Source of the DNA: a virus
Length of the DNA stretch: 30,099 nt
Strand: one strand, 5' to 3'
IMG/VR virus record: IMGVR_UViG_3300025759_000447
Span: 1-30,099 of that record
A program made the position numbers and the translations under genes. The notes under the pieces were generated by a model. That model was not told where the DNA came from, did not search any database, and worked only from the letters and a program-made list of their open reading frames with translations. Numbering within the stretch: position 1 is the stretch's first letter; every line of letters starts with the position of its first letter. Shown in pieces: positions 18,201-29,647 of the stretch.

Positions 18201-18395
18201 GGTAGAGGTTATACATCAACTCCTACTATTACAATTGCTGGCGGAGGCGGAACAGGCGCAACGGCTACAGCAACAACTGGAACTGTAACATATGAAGGTA
18301 TTAAAGCTTTTGCTGTTAAGGTAGTATTCCTTTCAGACAATAGTTCATTAATACCAGAAATTAGAGAATTAAGAGCAATTGCTCTACAGGCTTAA
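12204..18395 (+). CDS. Very large virion protein with DUF4815-type N-terminus
   Basis: A 2063-residue structural protein, the largest gene here, placed where T4 has gp9-gp11. The N-terminus GPYYDNFDRSKKFSKILFKPG then VPVQARELTQLQSILEQE is the DUF4815 hallmark of marine T4-like phages. The central part has strand-rich sequence with a helical block (YTMADIGQIENRINRLEYYTALSMLEK) that should trimerise or pack against the baseplate, and a Ser/Gly-rich linker around residues 1115-1200. Two pairs of GxGY modules lie near residues 1619-1695 and 1949-2029. The C-terminus KAFAVKVVFLSDNSSLIPEI then RELRAIAL is the conserved family end. An AGGA ribosome site overlaps the gp8 stop. Likely a baseplate-periphery or fibre-attachment protein; the role is inferred. 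Confidence 0.9.
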   Translation: MALNLNTGPYYDNFDRSKKFSKILFKPGVPVQARELTQLQSILEQEHTEHLDHIFKEGAPILGAKGFIQKFPFIKINDLDAGAASVSNDTLVNYVGDTVTGGTSGMVAKIKSVRTGSDGDAVEKKTLYLEYIGGDSTGTNLHFAAGETLTVTSTDSGRNGNTFVVDNNTSAVNVTTNYFGKALFFTIEDGLIYINGRIVVHTKQTINLEPFKLNASYHIGVELDDSIVTADDDATLNDPAQGTFNYNAPGADRYKLSTTIAKLALTAEPGADFVSMYTVENGEFSKTVDADIDFYAELGKSLAARTFEESGNYVIKNFDVKVREHLKTNDNNGYKAAPDGDANKIAVSVSTGIGYVNGFRKRIEAPTYIDVPKGTDSVVEEGFTVPTSYGNYVTVNEVAGLWDIEEGSIVKLGDTASNAVTDGTHGSHAAPSTVIGQARVRQLVRSNNTPGTASTEYRLYLYDIRMTSNEFKNVRTIYWSNSTSSGFADPVLVGGNAILNESKLNQLVFRNPFSATKTLATDVGSTYDNNFFYQKEFDQTFASNGQSSLSLTGSTTFPYSSSITDATVNDVFVMVIKDSVTINGVAYIPGQVFPLTSSMFTSVSSSSLAIDVGTVSVAFDAKLYVVVKQTDVAPVPKEIRKNRFVTIDTSTHPEGALGPYNLGHTDILRIDAVYITDSSGSYVEAGTDYKEQFILDNGQTDNFYGHGKLIKKLGSSVSLTNKKITVKLSYFNPNFTATTATYFSYNSYPVDDTGASGIYTYEIPLYRSARTGLYDLRDCHDFRPYVQSTSSDATLLSSASENPLETVQLRNPGGAGYTMPAPHQSMTTDAEYYLGRIDKVMLSETGQLKRIKGEPSTKPISPLQTADGMPLADLYIAPYPSISPFLARKKGRKDLGVRVKNLQNKRYTMADIGQIENRINRLEYYTALSMLEKNTTDLTVPDANGIDRFKNGIFVNPFDSHALSNVLDQDYKCSIDPKFKTCQPFFFEENWDAVYNSTDSNLVTKTGNIVTLPYTATSYKKVLVASKPRNCVGELLFNYKGTLTVNPPSDNFTDIEDGGEVNILDNNLYDTVENLAQGLNNAKLVNQLDFGWQGEPESIPLSELSIPAPQISASGDSFAGSFESSDSAFFGDTANLDGAVIGGGRRGRTNITGTVGMTGSANSVTSGDFSGSVNLAATSTGSTTFNVSGTTDGITLSTDVMTVSATKGEVVKNGEFGAITDVTFQTYMRSQVVTFVGRRMKPNTRLYPFFNGDDVSAHCRPASSSAVDAISPNSFWSDFATAVTGDFGDAITTDADGNVAGQFRIPAETFLVGERILRLTDDSLNRDSFTTTSCETKYSAYGLTSTKQTAVFSTQIPNIHFGSTAGNTETITGILTDVKLDGSSDVSISVDATADFELNSTTSIEVDAQLDGGINVMQDDPIAQTFFVNNREGVVVPKVDIYFRTKSATNGIELQIREVINGYPGNKVIPYGSKTLSSSQVNVSTESLSGAVTFSPTTFTFDTPVYLKPNAEYCIVLLPQGNDPDYNIWVAELGQNQVGTSKRIVLDDINLGVLFTSSNNRTWNAYQAEDMMFEIYRAKFDISNEGRVVLNNDDIDWCKLQDFTAGTPKAGDALHGFDIALTSGGSGYAVNEIVTLENGGGGTGAKIKVLTVSSGVIQTVELNDPGSGFTSDPGLLGQTSTDGSGSGATFTLTLNRGIVENYANVYGVARIKNTHGLFAASDLVGNGTTNMSISTIENKTFNELRTNISYLDFPETTIEFEYAGTKSSGVSVPGTDYKILIGGVRKKTPEEFAVYSYANEAGSLSSLKSFTSRLDLNSDNNYLSPIIDLSRTSFLGKRNHINNDFTNETKNNGNALSRYISKNIILADGQEGEDLRVYLAQKMPLNTDIRVYGRFLAPQDDANFNNDLDYVELEAVEVPGVGAEESFADFTYAIPEANKTSGVYNYDVTRVASVTITAGGSGYTSAPSVTFSGGGATKQATGYAVLSGSGVSEIIITDPGRGYTSTPTITIAGGGGTGATATATTGTVTYEGIKAFAVKVVFLSDNSSLIPEIRELRAIALQA
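17058..17290 (+). repeat. GxGY beta-module pair, first set in the 2063-residue protein
   Basis: Units TSGGSGYAVNEIVTLENGG and NDPGSGFTSDPGLLG with Gly/Thr connectors, matching the modules in gp8 and the gp7-position protein. They sit immediately after a conserved DDIDWCKLQDF segment, like an insertion between two structural domains. Confidence 0.7.
18049..18290 (+). repeat. GxGY beta-module pair, second set in the 2063-residue protein
   Basis: Units SVTITAGGSGYTSAPSVTF and EIIITDPGRGYTSTPTITI are followed by AGGGGTGATATAT, nearly the same connector as in gp8 (GDGTGATATATL). The pair interrupts the C-terminal domain just before its conserved family end. Confidence 0.75.
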
Positions 18396-18632: not shown

Positions 18633-19514
18633 ATGTCCACTATTACAACACGTTCAGGTAAAGGTTCTCCGTTAACAAATACGGAAGTCGACACAAACTT
18701 CACTAATTTAAACACAGATAAATATGAATCTGGTTCTGATGCTAGCTTAGCTTCATTAGATGTTACAGGTAATATTGTTTTAGGTATCGATGCCGGTGTT
18801 ACAGCTGCGGGAACTACCCAAGGAACAGGAACAGCATTAACTAAAACATATAACATTGTATCCACAGCGACTGCTAACCAAGGAGTTGTTTTACCAGACG
18901 TTTCAACTGGTTTAAAATGTGTAGTTTATAACTCTACATCAGCAATTATTAAAATATATCCAGCAGCCGGAGAGTCCATAGATGACGAATCTGCAAACGT
19001 TGCTGTTACATTAAGACCAAACAAAGGTAGAGAATATGTTGGTGTTTCAGGAACACAATGGAATTCAATAGATGAAAATCCAGAAATCCTAGATATCACA
19101 GGAGACGCTACAATTGGCGGAAGTTCTACAGTAGCAGGAACATTTACTGTTACAGGTAACGCTACATTAAACGGATTAATTGCACATGGTGTTACAGCTA
19201 ACGTAGCAGCTGCAGGGTCTGACCAAGGTGGAGCAACAGCATTAACAGAAACATTGAATGTTGTTACTTCTGGAACAGGCGGAGTTAAACTTCCAACAGC
19301 AGTAAGCGGAAGAACAGTTACAGTATTCAACACTTTATCAGTTGATTTAACTTTATACCCAGATTCATCAGATAACATTAATGGCGGTTCCGACGATGCA
19401 GGTATTACATTACCAGCAAATACAACTAAGACGCTATCATGTAAGGACGATGCTGCTTGGGTAAGTGTAAGACCATTGGCTGTATATAACAGCAGTGGAA
19501 CTTTAGTAAATTAA
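18633..19514 (+). CDS. Tail-fibre-like protein with internal duplication
   Basis: A 293-residue fibre-type protein. The N-terminus STITTRSGKGSPLTNTEVDT then NFTNLNTDKY is a recurrent start of marine phage fibre proteins and probably the attachment end. The rest consists of two homologous units of about 92 residues (about 55-146 and 186-280), each running GVTA...QG..TALT...N(I/V)V...GVxLP...V..N......YP......A.(I/V)TL, joined by a TGDATIGGSSTVAGTFTVTG linker of the type seen in trimeric fibre shafts. AGGAAAAG in the end of the preceding gene can act as ribosome site. No chaperone or enzymatic domain is seen. It may be a short fibre or a decoration of a longer one. Confidence 0.85.
   Translation: MSTITTRSGKGSPLTNTEVDTNFTNLNTDKYESGSDASLASLDVTGNIVLGIDAGVTAAGTTQGTGTALTKTYNIVSTATANQGVVLPDVSTGLKCVVYNSTSAIIKIYPAAGESIDDESANVAVTLRPNKGREYVGVSGTQWNSIDENPEILDITGDATIGGSSTVAGTFTVTGNATLNGLIAHGVTANVAAAGSDQGGATALTETLNVVTSGTGGVKLPTAVSGRTVTVFNTLSVDLTLYPDSSDNINGGSDDAGITLPANTTKTLSCKDDAAWVSVRPLAVYNSSGTLVN
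18795..19472 (+). repeat. Internal protein duplication within the 293-residue fibre protein
   Basis: Copy 1 is at about 18795-19070 and copy 2 at about 19188-19472. They align along their whole length by shared GVTA, TALT, GVVLP/GVKLP, VVYN/VFN, KIYP/TLYP and VTL/ITL landmarks. DNA identity looks low, so the duplication is old. Confidence 0.65.
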
Positions 19515-19541: not shown

Positions 19542-20645
19542 ATGGCAGGACCACTAAAAATAAAAGCAAGTTCGTTCCCGGTATCTGCCACATCTTTTGA
19601 AGGTGTGCAAGAACTTACAGATGTCGAAATTAAGGATACAATTGCTTATGTTTTAACAAAGAAATTTTCAGATGATACAGATGGTTCTGGGACTGCTGAA
19701 TTAAACATTAACGGTTCAGGAACTTCCATAGGGACATTTACTAACAGAGAAAGACAAGAATCAGTTGGAACTCACCCAGCTGCCGGAACTCTTACATCCA
19801 CAGTATACGACTTTAAACAAATTACAAGTGCAGCCACAGAGTCTGTAACAAGACCTGCTAGGTTCGATGGTGATAGCGTTGCTGAAATGACAGACGGTGA
19901 AATAGATACTGAAATTTTAGATAAAGTTATTACAGCTATGGTAACTGATGATGAACATACAACAGGTATCTATAAAATCTCAACAACAACACCTACCTCA
20001 GGTGGGACTTGGACATCACGTTATACAATCGCAGAAACACAAGTTGACGGAACAGATGTAACATATTACTTATGGCAAAAAACAACAGCTAATACAACTC
20101 CAGCAACAGATAGAAATTTCCCTGTTAAATTAGATGGTGAAAGTGTTGTTGAAATGACACAGGCAGAATTGGAATCATTAACAGCTGCCATGAGAAACAG
20201 AATTATTACTACAGGTGTTGGCACATATTTACTAGATAGCTCTACACCGAGTGCAACAGGAACATGGGTATTGATGGGCTCTGCAATGGACGATATTATT
20301 AAGTCTATTGCTAGCATAGCTTATGCAGGTGCTTATTCCTCAGAGTTTACAGGTTACTATATAACAAACTTTGCAGGAGCATATGCCAACAACTTTACAG
20401 GTTATTACACAGGAAACTTTACAGGAGCATACACACTTTACTATGGTGGTTATGTAGGTGGATATTTTTCCGGAACATATTCAAGTAATTTTGCAGGAAC
20501 ATATACTGGTTACTTTACAGGTTATTATGCTGGTGCTTTTGCAGGTAACTATACTGGTTACTTCACTGGTTACTATGCGGGTAATACAATTCAAACAACT
20601 CCGCAAACTCAGGAAACAAAACACCTTTACATTAGAACCGCATAA
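19542..20645 (+). CDS. Tail-fibre-like protein with C-terminal aromatic octapeptide repeats
   Basis: A 367-residue protein in three parts. The N-terminal part (1-95) has a beta-rich ELNINGSGTSIGTFTNRERQ region; then two similar blocks (about 95-180 and about 185-245) share a DGxSVxEMTxxE motif followed by a helix and GxYxxxxxxP...GTW. The C-terminal approximately 88 residues are eleven tandem octapeptides of the form F-(T/A)-G-x-Y-x-x-x, giving an aromatic residue about every four positions, and the tail ends QTQETKHLYIRTA. Repeats of this kind suggest a regular beta-structure in a fibre tip or shaft. The ribosome site AAGGAG is strong. The product could be a receptor-binding fibre; no direct evidence of receptor. 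Confidence 0.85.
   Translation: MAGPLKIKASSFPVSATSFEGVQELTDVEIKDTIAYVLTKKFSDDTDGSGTAELNINGSGTSIGTFTNRERQESVGTHPAAGTLTSTVYDFKQITSAATESVTRPARFDGDSVAEMTDGEIDTEILDKVITAMVTDDEHTTGIYKISTTTPTSGGTWTSRYTIAETQVDGTDVTYYLWQKTTANTTPATDRNFPVKLDGESVVEMTQAELESLTAAMRNRIITTGVGTYLLDSSTPSATGTWVLMGSAMDDIIKSIASIAYAGAYSSEFTGYYITNFAGAYANNFTGYYTGNFTGAYTLYYGGYVGGYFSGTYSSNFAGTYTGYFTGYYAGAFAGNYTGYFTGYYAGNTIQTTPQTQETKHLYIRTA
20322..20585 (+). repeat. 24-base tandem repeats encoding aromatic octapeptides
   Basis: Eleven in-frame 24-base units: YAGAYSSE, FTGYYITN, FAGAYANN, FTGYYTGN, FTGAYTLY, YGGYVGGY, FSGTYSSN, FAGTYTGY, FTGYYAGA, FAGNYTGY, FTGYYAGN. Phase is exact throughout with no insertion. A half-period of four is also visible, (F/Y)-x-G-x. 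Similar DNA words (ggttactttacaggttatta-like) recur, so unit number could change by slippage. Confidence 0.9.
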
Positions 20646-20679: not shown

Positions 20680-21123
20680 ATGAGCGAGGAAAAACAATTT
20701 CCTAAATTTAAAAACCCCTATTATTCAAATAGGGAAACAGGTCAAATCACCGCAGAGATGCTTATCGGGTCAGATTACTCTAGGGTAGTCATCAACCCAC
20801 CCACCGAAGAAGGGCTAGTTAATGCCGACTATGAGGAAATCCTAGCAGAGTTTGGTGAAGATACTATTGAAGCAAGAACAGTTGAACTTGAAACAATACA
20901 CCACAAACACAAAGAAGCACAAAAAGAACAAGAAGAAGCAAAACGTGATAGAATAAAACAGGAGTCTTTATTTAATGCTAAGATGGAAGCATTTGAAATA
21001 CAAGAAATTAAGGATTCTGAAAACGCCGAACTTAAAAAGAAACTTAGAAAATCCACTACACTAATCGAAGTTCAAGCATGGTCAACTATCATTATACAGG
21101 AACAATATAACAAGAATGGATAA
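20680..21123 (+). CDS. Charged coiled-coil protein of unknown function
   Basis: A 147-residue protein I do not recognise. Residues 1-60 have a mixed fold with Pro/Tyr-rich start (FPKFKNPYYSNRETGQITAE) and INPPTEEGLVNADYEEIL. Residues about 65-130 are strongly charged and helical (HHKHKEAQKEQEEAKRDRIK), predicting a coiled coil. It ends with WSTIIIQEQYNKNG. GGAG lies nine bases before the ATG. Its stop overlaps the next start by eight bases (ATGGATAA), tying it translationally to the glycosyltransferase-like gene. Location after fibre genes suggests a fibre-associated or assembly factor, which is inference only. Confidence 0.8.
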   Translation: MSEEKQFPKFKNPYYSNRETGQITAEMLIGSDYSRVVINPPTEEGLVNADYEEILAEFGEDTIEARTVELETIHHKHKEAQKEQEEAKRDRIKQESLFNAKMEAFEIQEIKDSENAELKKKLRKSTTLIEVQAWSTIIIQEQYNKNG

Positions 21124-21823
21124 TGGATATCTGCTAGTTGCATCTGTAGATAAACAATATTATGAGGCAGCAATTAAACTTGCCGAATCTATATTAGACT
21201 TTGACCCTCGTGCTAAAATAGCATTGTTTACTCATACAGAATGGATAGAAAATGATGAACGTGTTCAACGTTTATTTTATCATATAGATGGAACAGCTCC
21301 CAATAGCATACGTGCTAAACTTTGGGCTTTACCACAAACACCCTTTGAAACAACTCTTTATATAGACGTAGATGCGGTAGTCCAGCATGAGGACATCTCT
21401 ACGGTGTTTGATTTATTAGGTGATAACGATATACTGTTTACACGTAATAGGCCCTACAATGCTAAGATAACAAAGCTAAGCGACAATGAAGAAATGATTT
21501 ATCATTGTGGATTGTTTTTATATAACAATAAGCCTAATACTTTAAAACTAATGAAAATGTGGAATGAAAATTGGCACAAACAACAGGAGCCTGATTGGGA
21601 ACATAAGTATAAGAATTTAGGAGTAACACCTTGGGATACGTTTACAATGTGGGATTTATTAAACAATACAGAGTTTAAAGATACTATAAAGGTAGGAGTT
21701 TTTCCAACTCCAGATGCGAGATGGAACTTTGTAAATGGATATAAATATTCAGAGTTAAATAATGAAGATATTGTAATATATCATTATACTCTGAGTCGTG
21801 TTAAGCCGGGTCTTTCTTTATAA
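21116..21823 (+). CDS. Glycosyltransferase-like protein, GT-A fold with DxD motif
   Basis: Probably transfers a sugar from a nucleotide-sugar donor in the cytoplasm. The 235-residue product starts with a Rossmann-like strand (GYLLVASVDKQYYEAAIKLAESI), has APNSIRAKLWAL like nucleotide-binding helices of family 8-type enzymes, and the metal-binding DxD motif in LYIDVDAVV (D84-V85-D86). Further conserved-looking elements are YHCGLFLYNN, PWDTFTMWDLL and the terminal histidine segment IVIYHYTLSR, which could supply a third metal ligand. No membrane segment. It differs clearly from the four minus-strand paralogues. It overlaps the upstream coiled-coil gene by eight bases. Donor and acceptor cannot be told from sequence. 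Confidence 0.82.
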   Translation: MDNGYLLVASVDKQYYEAAIKLAESILDFDPRAKIALFTHTEWIENDERVQRLFYHIDGTAPNSIRAKLWALPQTPFETTLYIDVDAVVQHEDISTVFDLLGDNDILFTRNRPYNAKITKLSDNEEMIYHCGLFLYNNKPNTLKLMKMWNENWHKQQEPDWEHKYKNLGVTPWDTFTMWDLLNNTEFKDTIKVGVFPTPDARWNFVNGYKYSELNNEDIVIYHYTLSRVKPGLSL

Positions 21824-21893
21824 CTAGTTTAATAACTTTTTGTAGTCTTCCAGCTTTCATCATTTTATGAAATCTTTTAAAAATTTTACTCAT
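21801..21893 (-). CDS. Candidate 30-residue basic peptide (doubtful)
   Basis: On the minus strand an ATG at 21893 opens a 30-codon frame reading MSKIFKRFHKMMKAGRL then QKVIKLVIKKDPA, ending TAA at 21801 and overlapping the end of the plus-strand glycosyltransferase gene by 23 bases. It is strikingly basic and amphipathic (Lys/Arg about one third), unlike random antisense. No convincing ribosome site; a TATATATA-like stretch lies just upstream. Either a real micro-protein or chance; I lean only weakly to real. Confidence 0.25.
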   Translation of the reverse strand: MSKIFKRFHKMMKAGRLQKVIKLVIKKDPA

Positions 21894-21910
21894 ATACTAT
21901 ATATAAGAGT

Positions 21911-21950
21911 TTGTTACAAGATTGTAACAAATGTAACAAAACTGTAATAA
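21911..21950. repeat. Perfect 9-base inverted repeat plus iterated TGTAAYAA
   Basis: TTGTTACAA (21911-21919) and TTGTAACAA (21922-21930) are perfect inverted copies separated by GA. TGTAACAA recurs directly at 21923, 21932 and, as TGTAATAA, at 21943. The array ends two bases before the 2OG-oxygenase-like start. With a two-base spacer it is a poor RNA hairpin but a good protein-binding dyad; an operator or an alternative-promoter element is the likeliest reading. Confidence 0.6.
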
Positions 21951-21952
21951 TT

Positions 21953-22585
21953 ATGAAAATAATAGAAATAGGCCCACAATTAAATAATATATTAACAACA
22001 CACTCTGATTGGTTTTTCTCACAGGAAGACTATTTAGAACTGCCTGACTCGCCCTGTGAAATAAAGGAACATACACATACGATACAAAGTGCTTGTGGAG
22101 AGGAATACTTAGCAGAGGTGCAAGCTAAGGGTAGAGACCATAGGGGAGTTCCGGAAATATCTAGAGCAACTTCCTTTCAAACTGATATGTGGGTTCCAAA
22201 AAAATATAAAGAAGAATCTAAAAGAATAAACAAAGAACTATTAGATTTTTTAGGTGCAAAGTTTAGTGCTGTTCACGTATTTTACAAACCAGATTGTTTT
22301 ATGTCTTGGCATTGTAATTGGGATTGTCCTGGATATAATGTGTTATTAAGTTATAATAAAACAGGCAATGGTTTCTTTAGATATCAAGACCCAATAACAA
22401 AAGAAATTGTTACTATGGAAGACACGCCTGGCTGGTCATGTAAGGTCGGTTACTTTGGTGGACATGAAGAAGAAGATAAAATATTCTGGCATACCGCAGG
22501 CTCATATGAACCAAGAATTACATTTGGTTTTGTAGTCCCACATAAAGGTATGTGGGAAATGATGATAGAGGATATTGGAGATTAA
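21953..22585 (+). CDS. 2-oxoglutarate/Fe(II)-dependent oxygenase-like protein
   Basis: Probable cupin-fold hydroxylase. I chose ATG 21953 (MKIIEIG, 210 residues); the frame extends to a TTG at 21911, but that would translate the repeat array. The core is FYKPDCFMSWHCNWDCPGYN then VLLSYNKTGNGFFRYQDP, with H120 as first metal ligand, then GYFGGHEEEDKIFWHTAGSY containing H170, and R178 in EPRITFGF as the likely 2OG-carboxylate arginine. The usual HxD is H120-x-N122 here; D124 is nearby. Phage proteins of this type are common in marine genomes but their substrates are mostly unknown. Its stop overlaps the convergent methyltransferase stop by three bases. Confidence 0.7.
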   Translation: MKIIEIGPQLNNILTTHSDWFFSQEDYLELPDSPCEIKEHTHTIQSACGEEYLAEVQAKGRDHRGVPEISRATSFQTDMWVPKKYKEESKRINKELLDFLGAKFSAVHVFYKPDCFMSWHCNWDCPGYNVLLSYNKTGNGFFRYQDPITKEIVTMEDTPGWSCKVGYFGGHEEEDKIFWHTAGSYEPRITFGFVVPHKGMWEMMIEDIGD

Positions 22586-23265
22586 CCTAACGTTTGTCTT
22601 TGTCCTATAACCATAAACCTATCATATTCTTTTTTACCGTCCCAAGAATAATAGTTTTGTTTTTTAACACCCTCAAAGCCTATCTCATCTAAGGAGACTT
22701 GTTCTTTTAAGGCTTCTAAAGTATTAACACAATTAATACCATACATTTCTTCTACAACATTAGAATTTTGAACAGCAAATATACTAATAGGATTTTTAGT
22801 AGTTAGTTCTTTTAATGGATACATCTGCTCTGTGTGAATACAAATAACAATGTCAACATCTATTTTATTTAAATTGTCAAACTCAAAAGGAATGTCTAAG
22901 TTGTGGTGTCTTGTTTTAATAAATTTATCTTGTGAATAATGTTTGTGAAATAATTTACTAAGTTCAATGGCTTCATCATCTATATCAACTAAATGTAATT
23001 GTGAAACATCTATATTTTCACATAGTAAAGGAACAAGAGGAACACCTAACCAAGAATTTAAAATTAAAACACGCATACTACCCTGTTTAAGATAATATTC
23101 ATCTATATAATTTTTTAATTCTTCAACTAGCCATATGCTAGCATCCATATTATTTTGTTCAAGACTTTGCCTAAAGTCTGTAAGTTTATGAGGCATTCTA
23201 CGTTCTATTACTTGGAGAGCCTCTCCCCAATATTTAAAGTTATTTAAAAAATTAAAATTTAACAT
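22582..23265 (-). CDS. SAM-dependent methyltransferase-like protein, last gene of minus cassette
   Basis: Likely class I Rossmann methyltransferase, 227 residues. I start it at ATG 23265 (MLNFNFLNNFKYWGEALQVI), overlapping the upstream gene by 14 bases; the frame is open upstream but only through the neighbour. Visible elements: an N-terminal ERRMPHKLTDFRQ helix, motif I region VLILNSWLGVPLVPLL (66-81) in which the usual GxGxG is degenerate, the acidic strand end HLVDIDDEAIELSK (D94/D96) that would bind the SAM ribose, and VDIVICIHTEQM (137-148) in the motif IV position. C-terminal YSWDGKKEYDRFMVIGQR closes the sheet. Acceptor could be a sugar or lipid made by its glycosyltransferase neighbours. 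Confidence 0.7.
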   Translation of the reverse strand: MLNFNFLNNFKYWGEALQVIERRMPHKLTDFRQSLEQNNMDASIWLVEELKNYIDEYYLKQGSMRVLILNSWLGVPLVPLLCENIDVSQLHLVDIDDEAIELSKLFHKHYSQDKFIKTRHHNLDIPFEFDNLNKIDVDIVICIHTEQMYPLKELTTKNPISIFAVQNSNVVEEMYGINCVNTLEALKEQVSLDEIGFEGVKKQNYYSWDGKKEYDRFMVIGQRQTLG

Positions 23266-23926
23266 CTTCACTTTTTCCCATTGAATCGAATATACATACA
23301 TAAGGTAAATCCCTAAACACGTGCTTAGTCGTGTCTTGAGGATATAAGTAGCCGTGATTAAAACTATAAACCCATCCTACAGGAAAAAGTTTTTGTTTAA
23401 CAACACGTCTATTATAAAAGAAGTTATCCAAACCTCTATAATACCAAAGTATCTGCTTCTTATATTTATTAAAATAATCGGTAAGTTCCTGTGTATTTAA
23501 GGAATCATTCCACCGTAATACAGAACTATTTAAATCTGTATATTTGTGAGGTATGTGTCTAGTATTTTTATATGATGCATCTAAATCGTGCCACCATGTT
23601 TTAACAAAACATAAACTATCCTCACATTCAAAGTTAGCAAAAATATCTATGTTCTTTTGAATAATAGTATCCAAGTCAAAAAACATTTTTTCGCCTTCTT
23701 GTTTTACAATCATTGGGTCAAACAAATACATCTTGTTCCACCATTTTTGTAATTTGTTATTCTCAGGAAATTCTAAAACATTTATTTCCTCAGATAAACC
23801 CGTGGCATCTTCTGTTAAACAATAAAAAGTAAAGTCTTGTGTTAAGTGTTCTTTACAAGACGCAAGGATTTGTTCTACGTGTTGAGCAGAATATTTAGTC
23901 CCCCATTTTACTGTATAAATGTTCAT
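23252..23926 (-). CDS. Glycosyltransferase-like protein, paralogue 4
   Basis: A 224-residue member of the minus-strand family. Start chosen at ATG 23926, which overlaps the upstream TGA as ATGA; the more distal TTG lacks support. It begins MNIYTVKWGTKYSAQHVEQI, the family signature KWGxKYS, continues FTFYCLTEDATGLSEEINVL, has WWNKMYLFDP and the DxD-type motif FFDLDTIIQKNIDIF (D84-L85-D86). Later motifs NSSVLRW, YRGLDNFFY and GWVYSFNHG match the paralogues. Probably a GT-A-fold sugar transferase with metal bound by DLD. The last residues DSMGKSEDVKF overlap the methyltransferase start by 14 bases, which points to coupled translation. Confidence 0.8.
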   Translation of the reverse strand: MNIYTVKWGTKYSAQHVEQILASCKEHLTQDFTFYCLTEDATGLSEEINVLEFPENNKLQKWWNKMYLFDPMIVKQEGEKMFFDLDTIIQKNIDIFANFECEDSLCFVKTWWHDLDASYKNTRHIPHKYTDLNSSVLRWNDSLNTQELTDYFNKYKKQILWYYRGLDNFFYNRRVVKQKLFPVGWVYSFNHGYLYPQDTTKHVFRDLPYVCIFDSMGKSEDVKF

Positions 23927-24735
23927 CGCCAATGTGCTAATAATTCTGGGTCTGCCAATTCATCTTGTTTTGTGCTACCCCTACTACCATCTTCAAAAGG
24001 TAATAAGTCAACATTAAATACGCACAAAATACAATTAGGTCTATAAATTTTTATATTAAGGTCATCCTCTTCCCAGCTACGACCTCTATTATATGAGTAT
24101 GCCATCCAACTAGGAAAGTGGTCCCAAAGTTTTTTACCATAGTCTCCCCAACGCCAACTATGATAGTTATCTGTTCCATCTGTATATGTAAACCATATTT
24201 TTTCTTGATGTTCTAAAACATCGTTCCATATAGGTTCACATTGGTCATCACTCCAAACTTGACAACTGCCATTAGTATAGGCACCATGAGCAAGTTTAAA
24301 CCTTCTGGTGCTCATAGGTTGTGGGTCCTGCCACCAACTTCTTAATTTAGTAGGCTGTTCAGTATTATATGTAAGTATAGGTTCTAAGGAATTTTGTATA
24401 ATAACATCTAAGTCAAAGAATATAAAACGACCTGTAGGTTTATCTTCTGCAAAATTGTGGGTATTAAAAACAAAAGTTTTAGGCCTATCCCAACACCTAG
24501 CCATACCATATTTAAAGTCGTCTTTTTGAAACCAGTATTTAGGATGTATGTCTGGTATATCAGGAAATGGAATAACTTTTATATCATCATCAAGGCCTTC
24601 AGGTTTATCTGTATAACAATAAAAATGAAAATCATAATGGTCCGGAGTATTCCTTTTTGCCATATTTTTTAAACGATTAACAAAGTGTGGGCCATACTTA
24701 TCGCCCCACTTAGAACATATTGCATTAACACGCAT
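23923..24735 (-). CDS. Glycosyltransferase-like protein, paralogue 3
   Basis: A 270-residue family member. ATG 24735 (MRVNAICSKWGDKYGPHFVN) is preferred because it places the KWGDKY signature at the N-terminus as in its paralogues; it overlaps the upstream stop by 11 bases. Shared features are HFYCYTDKPEGLDDDIKVIP, the CWDRPKTFVFNTHNF block, FIFFDLDVIIQNSLEPIL with DLD at 108-110, CQVWSDDQCEPIWNDVLEHQ, TDGTDNYHSWRWGD and MAYSYNRGRSWEEDDLNIKI, ending ADPELLAHWR where paralogue 2 has LLIHWHG. This makes it the closest relative of the N-terminal domain of paralogue 2. Presumed cytoplasmic sugar transferase; donor unknown. Confidence 0.82.
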   Translation of the reverse strand: MRVNAICSKWGDKYGPHFVNRLKNMAKRNTPDHYDFHFYCYTDKPEGLDDDIKVIPFPDIPDIHPKYWFQKDDFKYGMARCWDRPKTFVFNTHNFAEDKPTGRFIFFDLDVIIQNSLEPILTYNTEQPTKLRSWWQDPQPMSTRRFKLAHGAYTNGSCQVWSDDQCEPIWNDVLEHQEKIWFTYTDGTDNYHSWRWGDYGKKLWDHFPSWMAYSYNRGRSWEEDDLNIKIYRPNCILCVFNVDLLPFEDGSRGSTKQDELADPELLAHWR

Positions 24736-26938
24736 TATCACAATCTCCACATTTTGCTTTACATATCGGTAAAGGGTTTCTACGTAAATGTTCACTTATG
24801 TTTTGAACATCACTATTATATATTACTTCATGCACAGTGATTTTTGAAGCATCACTATACTGCCAATTATAAGGATAGTCTAAAGGATGGTATGGAAATA
24901 ATTTATTTTCCCAAACATCTCTTCCTATATAGGAACATGGAAATAAATTACTCTTACTGTTTATATAAAAATACCCGCTTTTTCTAGCATCACACCATAC
25001 AGGGTCTTTATCCTTTATCTTTTTTCTTATATTTCTTAATTCAATTCCTTTTTTAAATTCTTTTAATGTATCTAAATTAACAGGAACATTTTTATCTGTT
25101 TGAATTTGTTCCTCAAGTTTTTCTATCTTCGTCTGTTCTTCTTGTTTTACAACTTCTATTGTATCAACATAATCTAATTTAACACCCTCTTGGAATGTTT
25201 GTAAACGCACAGAGCAATTTTGTTCTTGGAAGTAGTTACAAATACGTTCTAAATCTTCTACATGAATAGGGTCTGTTATCTCACAAACAAACGTAACCCA
25301 GTTCACTGGATATTTATCAAAGATAGTTTTAATACTATTGAGGTTATGTTCATAGCCATCTACAAATATATCATTAAATTCATTATTAGTATCATTTCTT
25401 TTTGTTGATAATTGTATCATTGCACCATCTGGCTTTTCATCATATAGACCTTTATAAAGGTCACTATACTCTTCGCCATAACTTTGAAAGTATTTAAATA
25501 ACGTATTGTCATCTGTGGAACCTTTTTGATTAAGGACACGTAATAATTCCTCTCGTGGCATAATGTTATACAACATACGAAATACTTCTTCATATTCCTC
25601 ATCATAAAATAATTCTGTAAGATGATAAAAATAATATTTTTTATAAAGTTCTGCACATTCATCATATGTTGCGTGCTGAAAAAATACTGAGGGTCCTTCA
25701 GTTTTATATCTTTCCATTAACCAGTCTTCTTTTTGTAAGGCAAACAACTCATCAAAGTTTTCACATAGTTCTTCCCCTGTAAGATTCCACATCATACTTT
25801 GGTCGCCGTGTTGTATATCCCATACTTCCGGAAAGGCTTCTTTAAAAGTTAAGTGAACAGAAACAATATCATTGTTATTATATGATTCTAATATTTGTTC
25901 ATGTGCATTAAAATTTAAATACCTGTCAGTTAAACTTCTATTGTTTAACCAATCAAACTCTAACCAGTTTCTCATATGTGGAAATTGTGTATGGTTTTGT
26001 TTCCAGTCTCTACCAAATCTGGGAAACTCATCTAAATATTTTTCTGCTAATTGTGTATAATTTTCTGCATCTAATAGTTCTCTTATTTTTACTAAATCTT
26101 TTGTATTGTAATTAAAGAACTCTTTCGGTAATTTAGGTAACCACAATCTTTCAAAATCATCTTTGCCGTGCCAATGTATTAATAAGTCATAGTCCTTTTT
26201 AATCTCATGCGGTTTAAATTGTTCGCCTGCATTAGGAGTTATATCAACATTAAACAAAGCTACTTTAGCTTCCTCTCTATATAAATGAGGTCTTACATCT
26301 TTACCAAACTCTTGTCCCCTATTATAACTGTAATACCATTCCTTAGGTAGGAAGTTCCAAAAGTTTTTGCCTACTACCATGTCCTCTCTATAATAATGAT
26401 AGTTGTCGCTACCTTTAAAGAAAGTTTTGAATACGGTGTCTTGGTGTTTTATTACATCATCATATATTTTTTCACATTGATTGCCGTTCCATAACATAAT
26501 ACTAGAGTTATATAATGAACCTCGCATATCAGTAAACCGTCTGTTCTTTAACACAGACGGGTCTTCCCAATTAGAGTATAACATTGTGGGTTGTTCTGTG
26601 GCTATATCAAAAAACTCATCTATATTATTTTGTATAATAATATCTAAGTCCATATAACAAAATGGTCCTTTTGTTTTTAGCCAATGGTGGGAATTGAATA
26701 TAAGAAACTTGGGTCTATCCCAACAATAGTTTTCCTTACCAAACCAATAGTCAGGATGCAAGGGTTTGACGTGAGGTATATTCCTTGTTATAATATGTTT
26801 ATCTAATCCACTTACATCATCAGTATAACAAATAAACTTAAAACGCTTACTGTATTTACGACTGACCATGCCGTATAAATTATTTACATAATCTGGGCTA
26901 TATCTATTTCCCCACTTTATGCAAAGAAAGTGCATCAT
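24725..26938 (-). CDS. Glycosyltransferase-like domain fused to SPASM-like cysteine domain, paralogue 2
   Basis: A 737-residue fusion. Residues 1-275 are a family glycosyltransferase: CIKWGNRYSPDYVNNLYG, CYTDDVSGLDKHI, CWDRPKFLIFNSHHW, YMDLDIIIQNNIDEFF (D97-L98-D99), YNSSIMLWNG, GSDNYHYYRE and LLIHWHG. Residues about 276-500 are helical and unassigned. Residues about 505-600 resemble part of a radical-SAM barrel (NWVTFVCEITDPIHVEDLER then ICNYFQEQNCSVRLQTF), but the CxxxCxxC expected near 510-521 is replaced by TKRNDTNNEF. Residues 645-737 look SPASM-like, with cysteines 649, 668, 726, 730, 733 and 737 (C-x18-C, then CKAKCGDCDNAC). The start overlaps the upstream gene by 35 bases; ATG 26935 is equally possible. 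Confidence 0.8.
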   Translation of the reverse strand: MMHFLCIKWGNRYSPDYVNNLYGMVSRKYSKRFKFICYTDDVSGLDKHIITRNIPHVKPLHPDYWFGKENYCWDRPKFLIFNSHHWLKTKGPFCYMDLDIIIQNNIDEFFDIATEQPTMLYSNWEDPSVLKNRRFTDMRGSLYNSSIMLWNGNQCEKIYDDVIKHQDTVFKTFFKGSDNYHYYREDMVVGKNFWNFLPKEWYYSYNRGQEFGKDVRPHLYREEAKVALFNVDITPNAGEQFKPHEIKKDYDLLIHWHGKDDFERLWLPKLPKEFFNYNTKDLVKIRELLDAENYTQLAEKYLDEFPRFGRDWKQNHTQFPHMRNWLEFDWLNNRSLTDRYLNFNAHEQILESYNNNDIVSVHLTFKEAFPEVWDIQHGDQSMMWNLTGEELCENFDELFALQKEDWLMERYKTEGPSVFFQHATYDECAELYKKYYFYHLTELFYDEEYEEVFRMLYNIMPREELLRVLNQKGSTDDNTLFKYFQSYGEEYSDLYKGLYDEKPDGAMIQLSTKRNDTNNEFNDIFVDGYEHNLNSIKTIFDKYPVNWVTFVCEITDPIHVEDLERICNYFQEQNCSVRLQTFQEGVKLDYVDTIEVVKQEEQTKIEKLEEQIQTDKNVPVNLDTLKEFKKGIELRNIRKKIKDKDPVWCDARKSGYFYINSKSNLFPCSYIGRDVWENKLFPYHPLDYPYNWQYSDASKITVHEVIYNSDVQNISEHLRRNPLPICKAKCGDCDNAC

Positions 26939-27587
26939 AATATTTTACATCTGCTCCTGGAAATTGTTCTTGTCCATTTAATAACGCTACTGTATATTCT
27001 GGTCTATATTTAAAACTTTGATTGTCTTCTTTAGTTGCACCATATACATAGGAATAGATAAGTTGTTCTGGGAAATGTTTGAAATCACACTCATGCCAAA
27101 AGAATCTATCATCGCCACCTACATATTTTGTCATATAGTAGTCTTCATCTTTTAAAAATTTTTCTACAATATTTATAGCAGATCTACCTGTCCAGGATAG
27201 AACACTGGAGTTATAATTACCCAAGTAATTTAATTTAATATCTTGATTGTAAACTCTTTCGGTAGGAAAATTTTTATCTTTCCAATGAGTATAAACTATT
27301 GTATTACTATTATAACTCGATTTCCATAAGATGTCAATACTTTTTTGTATGTTTATATCCAAATCAAAATACAAAACATGGCCCAAATCTGTTTGCTGTA
27401 ACATAAGAACTTTATTCCAATGCCCATACTCGGGGTCTAGCGGTCTTGTTTCTATAGCAGGGTCTATATCAGTAGGGTCATCTGTTAAACAGACATAATT
27501 ATACTTGCCATTTGTTTTTTCATAAATATCATTAACAGAGTCAGCACTAAACTTATTGCCGTATTTGATTGTTAATATAGTTTGCAT
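26904..27587 (-). CDS. Glycosyltransferase-like protein, paralogue 1, first gene of minus cassette
   Basis: A 227-residue family member. It starts MQTILTIKYGNKFSADSVND, has YVCLTDDPTDIDPAIETRPL, a GHWNKVLMLQ helix, VLYFDLDINIQKSIDIL with DLD at 75-77, NYNSSVLSWTG, VGGDDRFFWHE and LIYSYVYGAT, and closes EYTVALLNGQEQFPGADV. GT-A-type fold and metal-dependent sugar transfer are inferred from these. It has the promoter-proximal position: its start lies only 17 bases from the divergent plus-strand gene, with no strong ribosome site visible. The final 35 bases are also read, in another frame, as the start of paralogue 2. Confidence 0.82.
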   Translation of the reverse strand: MQTILTIKYGNKFSADSVNDIYEKTNGKYNYVCLTDDPTDIDPAIETRPLDPEYGHWNKVLMLQQTDLGHVLYFDLDINIQKSIDILWKSSYNSNTIVYTHWKDKNFPTERVYNQDIKLNYLGNYNSSVLSWTGRSAINIVEKFLKDEDYYMTKYVGGDDRFFWHECDFKHFPEQLIYSYVYGATKEDNQSFKYRPEYTVALLNGQEQFPGADVKYYDALSLHKVGK

Positions 27588-27604: not shown

Positions 27605-27931
27605 ATGGCAACAATACAAAACATCGTTATCGACCAGGGGACCACATTTAGTTTAGAGCTAACTCTAACAAATGATGATGGGTCCGCAACCGATTTAACG
27701 GATTATACTGTTTCCTCTCAGATGAGAAAAAGTCATTACTCTACTACTTATACAAGTTTTACTACAAATAAAGTTAATTTAACAGGAGTTATTACCATTT
27801 CATTAACAGCTACACAGACATCAGAACTAAAAGCTGGAAGGTATGTGTATGATATTGAAATTACATCATCAGAAGAAACTGTTAGAGTATTAGAGGGTAT
27901 TGTTACTGTAACTCCGGAGGTAACCAAATAA
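27605..27931 (+). CDS. Small beta-sandwich-like phage structural protein
   Basis: A 108-residue product beginning TIQNIVIDQGTTFSLELTLT and continuing DLTDYTVSSQMRKSH, then ITISLTATQTSELKAGRYVYDIEI and VRVLEGIVTVTPEVTK. This pattern is widespread in small tail proteins of marine and other phages (an all-beta domain with the ending of the type LEGxVxVxPEVT); function is usually given only as virion structural. It starts five bases after TATAAATA with no Shine-Dalgarno sequence, and its TAA overlaps the next ATG by one base (TAATG). Likely a fibre-attachment or baseplate-proximal component of the fibre proteins encoded downstream. Confidence 0.88.
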   Translation: MATIQNIVIDQGTTFSLELTLTNDDGSATDLTDYTVSSQMRKSHYSTTYTSFTTNKVNLTGVITISLTATQTSELKAGRYVYDIEITSSEETVRVLEGIVTVTPEVTK

Positions 27932-28164
27932 TGGCAATCAAAGTAAGTGCTACAAGAGGCGCAACTAAAGTATCAGTTAATACAGTAAACACTGGCTCGC
28001 AAAGAGTAACAAGTGCTTCATTACAACAATTATCAAATGTAGATACAACAGGAGGCTTAGAGGATGGATACACTCTAGTTTATGATGAAGACACAGGAAA
28101 ATGGGTAGCACAAGAGCTCAGTTCTTCTGTTCAATTAGATGTTTTAGATGGCGGAACCTACTAA
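27931..28164 (+). CDS. Short fibre-type protein ending DGGTY
   Basis: A 77-residue product, MAIKVSATRGATKVSVNTVN then ...SASLQQLSNVDTTGGLEDG, YTLVYDEDTGKWVAQELSSS, ending VLDGGTY. The middle (LSNVDTTGGLEDGYTLVYDE) is the common fibre phrase in which a descriptor is linked to a vector of values. The end matches the SLDGGSY end of the 456-residue fibre protein downstream. One-base overlap with the preceding gene and an AGG/GGAGG-type site (ccggaggtaacc) inside its end provide coupling. Probably a small fibre or adaptor. No function is established. Confidence 0.85.
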   Translation: MAIKVSATRGATKVSVNTVNTGSQRVTSASLQQLSNVDTTGGLEDGYTLVYDEDTGKWVAQELSSSVQLDVLDGGTY

Positions 28165-28182
28165 AATAAAAAGTAGGATTTG

Positions 28183-28190
28183 TATAAATA
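28183..28190 (+). promoter_or_regulatory. TATAAATA late-promoter motif upstream of the 456-residue fibre gene
   Basis: An exact TATAAATA lies in the 112-base gap 28165-28276. A leader of roughly 80 bases follows to an AAGGAG ribosome site. A weak inverted repeat CCTACT/AGTAGG (28157-28162 and 28172-28177) precedes the motif. I see nothing else in the gap. Confidence 0.6.
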
Positions 28191-28276
28191 AAATGGTATA
28201 AAACATATAATCAACAACTTTTACATTATAAAAGACAAAGCCCATAAGGGTAAATTTTAATCCAAGGAGAAAATTA

Positions 28277-29647
28277 ATGGCAACAGTAATTCAAATTAAG
28301 AGAAGTGTCAATGATACTGCTCCATCAACATCGGATTTAAGTGAAGGAGAATTAGCCTATAGCCAAGATAAATCAGGCGATGGTGCTAATGCGATACTTT
28401 ACATTGAATCAGTTGATTCTAGTAACGCTCAAGTTATTCAGAAAATTGGTGGTAAATATTATACAGACATTATCGATGGCGCTACGGATTCTAACACTGC
28501 TTCCAAACTAGTTAAAAGAGATGGTAGTGGAAACTTTAGTGCAGGCACAATCACAGCAGCCTTAACAGGTAACGTAACAGGAACAGTTTCAGACGTTTCT
28601 AACCATGACACAGATGATATTTCAGAAGGTTCAAGTAATCTTTATTTTACAGATGCAAGAGCTAGAGGTGCTATTAGTGCTTCTGGTGATATTTCATATG
28701 ACAGTTCAACTGGTGTTATTAGTTTTACTAATGATGCTGGAGACATTGAAAGTGTTGTTGCCGGTTCTGGTTTAACAGGTGGCGGAACAACAGGTGATGT
28801 TACACTAAACATTGGCGCAGGAACAGGTATTACTGTAGCTGCCGATACAGTTGGTTTAACAGACACAGGTGTTACAGCTGATTCATACGGTTCAACAACA
28901 GCAATTCCAGTCCTTACAGTTAATGCACAGGGACAAATTACAGCTGCAACAACAGCAGCCATTGCTACTTCATTCACACTTTCAGATGGTTCTAACACAG
29001 ATACATTTAGTGGCGGTGAAACATTAACATTCAGTGGTGTATCAAACGAAACAGACATCACAGTATCTGACAATGAAGTAACAGTAGGTTTGGTTACTAA
29101 CCCAACAATTGGTGGTAACTTAACAGTTTCAGGTAACATGACAGTTGCAGGAACAACAACTTCTGTTAATTCAACAAACTTAGAAGTTAATGACCCACTA
29201 TTTAAAATGGGTGCGAACAACGATTCATCAGACGCAATTGACTTAGGTTTTTATGGTTTGTATGATACATCAGGTTCACAAGACTTATTTGCAGGTTTGT
29301 TCAGAGATGCAAACGACGGTAAATGGAAACTGTTTAAAGATTCACAATCCGAACCAACAACAACTGTTGACACTACAGCAACAGGATATAGTGTTGCTAC
29401 TTTAGTTGCCAACCTCGAAGGCGATGTTACTGGTTCATTAACAGGCGGAACTGTTAGCGGACTAAGTGCAGCAATCGGTGTTGCAGACGGTGGAACAGGT
29501 GCAGGAACATTTACATCAAATGGTATTGTATTCGGTAACGGAACAGGCGCATTACAAGTAACAGCAGCCGGAACAGATGGTCAAGTTCTAATTTCCAATA
29601 GTGGAACACCAGAATTTACATCATCATTAGACGGCGGTTCTTACTAG
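28277..29647 (+). CDS. Tail-fibre protein with trimeric-fibre repeat phrases, ending DGGSY
   Basis: A 456-residue fibre protein. The N-terminus TVIQIKRSVNDTAPSTSDLS then EGELAYSQD is the usual start of such fibres and likely the attachment end. The shaft has SNLYFTDARARGAISASGDI, SGLTGGGTTGDVTLNIGAGT and GNLTVSGNMTVAGTTTSVNS, phrases typical of phage fibres; a globular-looking block NDPLFKMGANN...GFYGLYDTSGSQDLFAGLFR then DANDGKWKLFKDSQ lies at about 305-360; the C-terminus has GGTGAGTFTSNGIVFGNGTG and ends SLDGGSY. Ribosome site AAGGAG and an upstream TATAAATA suggest strong late expression, and a terminator follows the stop. Likely involved in host binding. Confidence 0.88.
   Translation: MATVIQIKRSVNDTAPSTSDLSEGELAYSQDKSGDGANAILYIESVDSSNAQVIQKIGGKYYTDIIDGATDSNTASKLVKRDGSGNFSAGTITAALTGNVTGTVSDVSNHDTDDISEGSSNLYFTDARARGAISASGDISYDSSTGVISFTNDAGDIESVVAGSGLTGGGTTGDVTLNIGAGTGITVAADTVGLTDTGVTADSYGSTTAIPVLTVNAQGQITAATTAAIATSFTLSDGSNTDTFSGGETLTFSGVSNETDITVSDNEVTVGLVTNPTIGGNLTVSGNMTVAGTTTSVNSTNLEVNDPLFKMGANNDSSDAIDLGFYGLYDTSGSQDLFAGLFRDANDGKWKLFKDSQSEPTTTVDTTATGYSVATLVANLEGDVTGSLTGGTVSGLSAAIGVADGGTGAGTFTSNGIVFGNGTGALQVTAAGTDGQVLISNSGTPEFTSSLDGGSY

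Follow-up and report, generated by a model that had tools for sequence, protein, structure and literature searches.

Auxiliary-cluster domains and pseudo-radical-SAM proteins

SPASM and twitch domains are familiar as accessory parts of radical-SAM enzymes; pseudo-radical-SAM proteins (IPR026418) lack the core cysteines. We analyzed an IMG/VR virus record (IMGVR_UViG_3300025759_000447; the whole 30,099-base stretch is referred to here as the window) in which an open reading frame (ORF) on the minus strand, encoding the 737-amino-acid protein P0001, very probably joins a glycosyltransferase (GT) to a pseudo-radical-SAM half barrel and a twitch domain. PMC6231123 defines SPASM domains, with seven cysteines, and one-cluster twitch domains, including the cysteine pattern, and describes auxiliary clusters that are fully ligated (BtrN), bind substrate (MoaA) or take up a cysteine of the substrate peptide (CteB). 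The role of these clusters “remains largely enigmatic” (PMC10470005). Pseudo-radical-SAM proteins occur in Bacteroidales peptide clusters, where they are proposed to act as partners of radical-SAM enzymes on the peptide (PMC10352776). T4-like marine phages (TARA_ERS488813_N000010 and others) carry as many as 12 radical-SAM genes along with an A-type iron-sulfur (Fe-S) carrier (PMC5332604).

With SuiB, PqqE and BtrN (the last a twitch protein), P0001 shares half of the barrel fold and a twitch domain whose cysteines flank a beta-hairpin, with a further one beyond the next helix; unlike them, it has no CxxxCxxC motif, only about half of a barrel, no second (Aux II) cysteine set, and an attached GT. 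Residues 1-265 resemble the GT8-type GTs glycogenin, LgtC, UGGT and LARGE1 in fold, in the DxD motif and in a His-x-x-Gly-Lys stretch, but P0001 differs from them by an identity of 12-14% or less in most matches and by its pseudo-radical-SAM/twitch tail. The IPR026418 proteins are likewise radical-SAM relatives called pseudo; they are found in bacterial peptide clusters and not in a phage island, and the available part of the account mentions no GT fusion. The T4-like marine phages, likened here by description, share many radical-SAM genes and the A-type carrier, in an account that, so far as available, includes no fusion protein. Pseudo-radical-SAM proteins are already known, and a GT fused to a pseudo-radical-SAM/twitch module was not found in the literature searched, which excluded most subscription papers. 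With modest confidence, and from comparison of sequences and predicted structures, we favor a phage GT whose C-terminal pseudo-radical-SAM module would be non-catalytic, stabilized by a metal and used to position an acceptor.

Composition and conservation of the fusion protein

In what follows, “fusion” denotes a GT, a pseudo-radical-SAM half barrel and a twitch domain in one ORF, and “split” denotes two overlapping genes. Relatives were gathered in six scans of viral contigs (18, 37, 44, 26, the best 80 of 111, and 77 loci); these sets overlap, and one contig often appears under several locus identifiers. Pooling the first five scans with the window gave 148 ORF instances, 75 of them distinct: 71 fusion-type and 4 split-type ORFs. 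Because 71 distinct ORFs have this composition, it is more than chance. The 3' end is complete in 67 fusion-type ORFs, the 5' end in 54, and both ends in 50, the rest being cut by contig ends. By size, the 50 complete fusions measure 438-478 (n=19), 731-737 (n=11), 833-838 (n=11) or 907-912 (n=9) amino acids, and these differences lie in the middle region, where the original prediction had left about 225 residues unassigned. The middle is predicted to be all-helical, with a predicted local distance difference test score (pLDDT) of 85-93 by blocks of ten over residues 281-440 of the full-length model; it is missing from the 438-440-amino-acid form, and the 438-478 class joins the GT directly to the half barrel and twitch domain. 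No row for the helical middle appeared in the VIA-align 2 (VIA) comparison of the full-length model, which says little, as this region was folded only within the whole protein.

The N-terminal part is a GT8-like domain with a DxD motif. Structures were compared by Foldseek against 350,542 chains of the Protein Data Bank (PDB) and by VIA on Foldseek's best 1000. In the full-length AlphaFold model (mean pLDDT 71.5, predicted template-modeling score 0.51), the GT part matched glycogenin at E 5e-4 in Foldseek and LARGE1 and UGGT at Z 12.9 and 12.1 in VIA; fold matches of residues 1-265 were to glycogenin, LgtC, UGGT and LARGE1. The Pfam GT8 profile (PF01501) matched 3 of 17 members of the alignment A10 at E up to 1 (best 6.9e-4) and neither P0001 nor its GT domain alone. 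DLD is present in all 54 fusion-type ORFs with a complete 5' end, and across an alignment of 27 relatives (A7, 27 rows) H255 is kept in 25/26, G258 in 26/26 and K259 in 23/26; we take the His-x-x-Gly-Lys at 255-259 to be the GT8 metal/donor motif. Because DLD, H255, G258 and K259 are conserved, proteins of the P0001 type are likely to be active metal-dependent GTs.

The module that follows contains a half radical-SAM barrel, and the SAM-cluster cysteines are missing from all homologues that cover this region. AlphaFold prediction of residues 471-737 with 30 sequences gave a mean pLDDT of 66.3, rising to 84-97 (blocks of ten) between 501 and 600; the predicted barrel is only about half complete, but its confidence is high and its best matches are radical-SAM enzymes. 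A partial TIM barrel had been named as a check by the original prediction and is predicted here as this half barrel; that prediction had placed the segment in the second half of the fold, which we correct to the first half (beta1 to beta3), since the position of the cluster loop lies within it. In Foldseek, ranks 1-5 for the C-terminal model were SuiB (E 1.5e-3 to 4.5e-3) and rank 6 was BlsE. VIA aligned the same model to SuiB at Z 13.3 (root-mean-square deviation 3.8 over 152 residues), BtrN at 13.0 (3.4, 155) and PqqE at 13.0 (3.3, 144); radical-SAM enzymes fill the 32 top rows (Z 6.4 and higher), and the next are unrelated LOG proteins at 5.2. Residues of about 500-709 in the full-length model gave comparable matches (SuiB Z 13.6, PqqE 13.4, BtrN 12.4). 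In a viral structure library, ranks 1-12 went to phage proteins annotated as radical-SAM, Fe-S oxidoreductase or 4Fe-4S, all with E above 0.001. Where the cluster loop would lie, an NDT motif is found in 68 of 71 fusion-type ORFs, the remaining three being cut, and all 68 ORFs covering the region lack CxxxCxxC, with no cysteine within about 12 residues of NDT. The loop of the short form reads ELSNKHNDTGNSF at this position, lining up with the usual ELTxxCNxxCxxC. No homologue with an intact CxxxCxxC was found among ORFs from the six viral scans, one of them limited to the best 80 of 111 loci. Since both CxxxCxxC and the second barrel half are lost, radical chemistry with S-adenosylmethionine (SAM) by this module is very unlikely. 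NCBIfam searches with the A7 members returned mainly unrelated models, and a PapB-type radical-SAM model in 2/27 (best 0.072).

The C-terminal twitch domain has five invariant cysteines and is under purifying selection. Positions 649, 668, 726, 730 and 733 are cysteine in all 67 fusion-type ORFs with a complete 3' end; the sixth cysteine listed by the original prediction, C737, has a counterpart in only 8 of them. The spacing in the window is C-x13-[S]-x4-C ... C-x3-C-x2-C. The cysteines of the pattern CX9-15GX4C, with a later cysteine after the next helix, are thus present in 67/67 complete ORFs, and the window has Ser663 at the SPASM/twitch glycine position, where L007 (93% identical in the C-terminal part) has glycine. 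The strict seven-cysteine, two-cluster SPASM motif is absent, and the five conserved cysteines fit a one-cluster twitch domain better. Other C-terminal cysteines of A7 (552, 567 and 575) are kept in 16, 19 and 4 of 27. The twitch hairpin has a pLDDT of 75-79 in the C-terminal model. VIA alignments to BtrN, PqqE and SuiB span barrel and twitch at model residues of about 30-243; the cysteine-bearing tail, the last 28-29 residues, is under 50 in both models. When the A7 members were scanned one by one at E up to 1, 22 of 27 gave a match to the Pfam SPASM profile (PF13186), the best at 2.4e-4. Among ten records scanned with SPASM, nine had a match and six exceeded the cut-off; within the six that bear a fusion (G001, G002, G004, G006, G008 and G010), the fusion ORF itself exceeded the cut-off in two (22.2 bits against a required 21.5), fell short of it in two and had no match in two.

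All parts of the fusion are under purifying selection. Ratios of nonsynonymous to synonymous change (dN/dS), estimated by the Nei-Gojobori method for seven pairs and rough because some synonymous distances exceed 1, were 0.048, 0.023, 0.020, 0.016, 0.115, 0.024 and 0.044 for the twitch domain; 0.021, 0.038, 0.066, 0.029, 0.136, saturated and 0.067 for the GT; and 0.096, saturated, 0.124, 0.047, 0.063, 0.108 and saturated for the half barrel.

Neither the C-terminal part (tblastn, E up to 1) nor two split-branch proteins found a match in 50,697 phage records, where whole P0001 matched two records in its GT part only; for the 438-amino-acid form the hits were three Tetraselmis virus records (E 0.06), again in the GT part only. 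Bacterial and archaeal genomes gave 147 pattern matches and no relatives, which is weak evidence of absence, as only two short peptide patterns were used.

A split sister branch and a sequence bridge to radical-SAM enzymes

In other contigs this place is taken by a GT gene and, overlapping it, another gene whose product terminates in the same module, though with a longer barrel. The scan for this branch gave 77 loci, reduced to 49 distinct ORFs of 200 amino acids or more; an overlapping GT gene lies upstream of 47, and the exceptions (L216, L242) begin at or near a contig end. CxxxCxxC outside the last 30 residues occurs in none of the 49. Among the 41 ORFs that are complete and over 450 amino acids, 40 keep the hairpin cysteine pair (L249 fails the pattern). 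In the last ligand block 4 end in CxxxCGxC, 36 have [I/L]H[N/D]EQxGxC, and L246 has IWNEQEGIC. The majority form (e.g. L220-L276) stands in place of ICxxKCGxC and represents a conserved Cys-to-His change at the putative metal site.

An alignment of 17 of the 49 ORFs (A9) was matched to the fusion module by profile alignment at 99.4% and E 1.2e-21, across both barrel and twitch. Its members matched SPASM (15/17) and Radical_SAM (5/17, best 0.0024) in Pfam and, in NCBIfam, the TIGR04317 tungsten-cofactor oxidoreductase radical-SAM maturase (3/17, best 4.2e-8) and the StsB maturase (4/17, best 0.001); weak matches to other barrels (dihydroorotate dehydrogenase, 3/17, best 0.011) and to unrelated models were also seen. 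By these sequence matches A9 is a bridge from the fusion module to real radical-SAM/SPASM enzymes. Chance resemblance to radical-SAM proteins is rejected, since fold comparison, profiles of relatives and profile alignment concur. No NCBIfam match named for IPR026418 appeared at E up to 1 with 17 + 27 proteins, the library's inclusion of such a model being unchecked. In a tree built from 34 GT-domain rows, with GTc serving as outgroup, the fusions group together (support 95/85), as do the short (100/100) and the long (94/91) fusions, beside the sister branch that encodes GT and pseudo-radical-SAM-twitch as separate overlapping genes; the split group as one side is supported by 53/62 only. The simplest reading would be that a single fusion took place and the barrel was trimmed afterwards. 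A likeness of the N-terminus of the split-branch protein to a dead GT domain, with TPN at the DLD position, is weak (13.6% probability over 40 columns). At L278 (5004-6041) the split-branch ORF stops at 346 amino acids and family similarity continues to base 6483, likely by frameshift or truncation.

Iron-sulfur context in related phages

Radical_SAM matches over the cut-off were found in 4/10 and 6/7 records (10/17), with up to nine per record and none of the listed matches within the fusion ORF; an A-type Fe-S carrier was matched in 4/12 records and over the cut-off in 3. As records may be fragments, missing Radical_SAM or carrier matches say little. A cluster of radical-SAM genes with intact CxxxCxxC lies at about 137-148 kb of G001 (the 165,637-base record of L037), with such genes also in L053, L062-L064, L073 and L076-L081; four have SPASM matches over the cut-off. 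L053 has at least one ORF whose cysteine pattern precedes the core, as in N-terminal twitch proteins.

The glycosyltransferase island

The fusion gene is part of a conserved island (21116-27587) in which five GT-like genes are accompanied by one methyltransferase-like gene and by the gene at 21911-22585 (Table 1). Comparison of 18 loci picked for the purpose, each as far as its contig reaches, showed the order w108 - GTd - fusion (or GT, then split gene) - GTc - GTb - methyltransferase-like kept in 18/18; at L245 the GT half alone matched the window fusion protein. A homologue of the 21911-22585 gene comes next in 17/18, the exception being L260. This gene was considered by eye as a 2-oxoglutarate oxygenase, and Pfam gave no support. 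Matches of w108 in PHROG include phrog_3304 (L-shaped tail fibre assembly, E 2.4e-21) and phrog_1084, of unknown function, and a structural PHROG is hit by 28277-29647; by these matches the island adjoins virion-type genes, and its acceptor is perhaps a virion protein. Neighbouring proteins of virion type lie at 18633-19514, 19542-20645 and 27605-29647. The ORF at 19542-20645 (+) adjoins the island and has GYFTGYYAG-like aromatic repeats at its C-terminal end, which makes it a possible glycosylation target. The ORF at 12204-18395 (+), of 2063 amino acids, lies upstream of tail-fibre-like genes.

Table 1. Features of P0001 and the surrounding island in the window
Feature	Coordinates	Strand	Basis
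Whole ORF: GT8-like glycosyltransferase, helical insert, pseudo-radical-SAM half barrel, twitch domain	24725..26938	-	ORF calling, relatives
GT-A / GT8-like catalytic domain, residues 1-258 (fold matches reach ~265); DLD 97-99; H255, G258, K259	26165..26938	-	Fold matches, Pfam in relatives, conservation
All-helical insert, residues 259-499; length varies, absent from 438-440 amino acid form	25442..26164	-	Relatives, predicted structure
First half of radical-SAM barrel (beta-alpha-beta-alpha-beta), residues 500-600	25139..25441	-	Predicted structure, fold and profile comparison
TKRNDTNNEF, residues 512-521, position of lost CxxxCxxC loop	25376..25405	-	Conservation, alignments
Twitch (half-SPASM) domain, residues 649-737; C649, C668, C726, C730, C733; C737 not conserved	24728..24994	-	Structure, profiles of relatives, conservation
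GTd, glycosyltransferase-like, upstream; end overlaps start of fusion gene	26904..27587	-	Gene comparison
GTc, GT-like; overlaps end of fusion gene; 42% identical to fusion GT domain	23923..24795	-	Gene comparison
GTb, GT-like	23252..23932	-	Gene comparison
Methyltransferase-like gene (weak Pfam matches only)	22582..23301	-	Pfam, gene comparison
w108	27605-27931	opposite strand	PHROG

Weighing the explanations

The ORF, the DLD, the TKRNDTNNEF stretch and the six cysteines named in the original prediction were all located (Table 1), and its proposal of a GT joined to a radical-SAM remnant without SAM-cluster cysteines and to a SPASM-like domain is borne out by structure comparison, profiles of relatives and conservation. 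The roles that it suggested, a structural or redox Fe-S cluster or a peptide-binding module that positions an acceptor, stay inferential. In the mechanism that we favor, the GT half would transfer a sugar, dependent on metal through its DxD; the twitch site would still bind a metal that stabilizes the module, one Fe-S cluster or else a zinc ion; and the module would recognize the acceptor, which may be a virion protein, and position it for glycosylation by the GT to which it is fused or with which it is paired. With SAM chemistry very unlikely and the twitch site kept, elimination makes it most likely that the module shapes the enzyme or binds an acceptor; positioning of the acceptor, taken by itself, may be put at slightly under even.

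Several observations weigh against this account. The acceptor role is reached by elimination. P0001 alone has no Pfam and no NCBIfam match, and PHROG gives one weak match (glycosyltransferase, E 0.002), so the case for its composition rests on relatives and structure; the profile search proposed earlier gave nothing for P0001 itself, and SPASM matches in most of the relatives scanned. Foldseek of the C-terminal model against the PDB returned no match at E 0.001 or below, and a PDB sequence-profile search found no radical-SAM chain, its single hit being an unrelated AgrC chain at E 0.077. The SPASM profile missed the 907-amino-acid fusions of G001 and G006, the G001 matches being separate radical-SAM proteins. 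Cysteines 37, 72 and 94 of the GT domain are each kept in 25/25 rows of A7, and since they are equally invariant, cysteine invariance alone is no proof of a metal site. Within most complete split-branch ORFs (the 36/41 above), one ligand position is histidine and another is lost, which is unusual for a cubane cluster; because of this histidine, zinc is a possible metal.

Exchange of cysteine and histidine is typical of zinc sites, and a structural zinc in the twitch site, forming a rigid scaffold with nothing redox-active, would differ from the favored account in the metal only. We consider zinc the less probable metal, and yet a serious alternative given the Cys-to-His exchange at the C726 position in the split branch, where the positions of C649, C668 and C733 are kept in nearly all ORFs and the hairpin pair persists as counted above. 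The fusions, however, keep all five cysteines without exception, related phages encode radical-SAM enzymes and some also Fe-S carriers, and the cysteine spacing is that of a twitch domain as defined in PMC6231123. An Fe-S cluster that switches the GT on or off during infection in response to redox state or oxygen is improbable: a cluster site without a catalytic core, fused to an enzyme, could act as a sensor, but the ligand set is altered in the split branch, and a conserved half barrel would not be needed. By analogy with Aux I of CteB, a twitch Fe-S cluster with an open iron site might bind the acceptor, for instance through a peptide thiol, as a GT docking site without radical-SAM activity. 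This too has a small chance of being right; if true, an auxiliary cluster would have been converted from radical chemistry to acceptor docking for a GT.

The module could instead tether the GT to a catalytically active radical-SAM enzyme encoded by the phage itself, and a single acceptor would then undergo glycosylation as well as radical modification. Partnership between pseudo-radical-SAM and radical-SAM proteins is a published hypothesis (PMC10352776), and Radical_SAM exceeds the cut-off in the 10/17 records given above; none of the listed matches, however, lies within the island, the radical-SAM cluster of G001 is about 45-60 kb away from it, and several fusion-bearing records, though fragments, show no Radical_SAM match, so that we hold docking to be unlikely. 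Decay of the C-terminal half as a relic of a former fusion partner would fit the absence of the core cysteines and of the second barrel half, but is extremely improbable in view of a twitch dN/dS of 0.016-0.048 in six of seven pairs (0.115 in the seventh), the cysteines kept throughout and the conserved replacement loop; recent decay is rejected by low dN/dS and conserved cysteines.

Implications

The conserved island is suggestive of a phage glycosylation pathway whose targets may be virion proteins. Loss of the SAM site and retention of a second, probable metal site suggest that the latter has been recruited for a new job. Because the SAM site is gone and the auxiliary site is kept in a phage family, the function of an auxiliary site on its own becomes testable.

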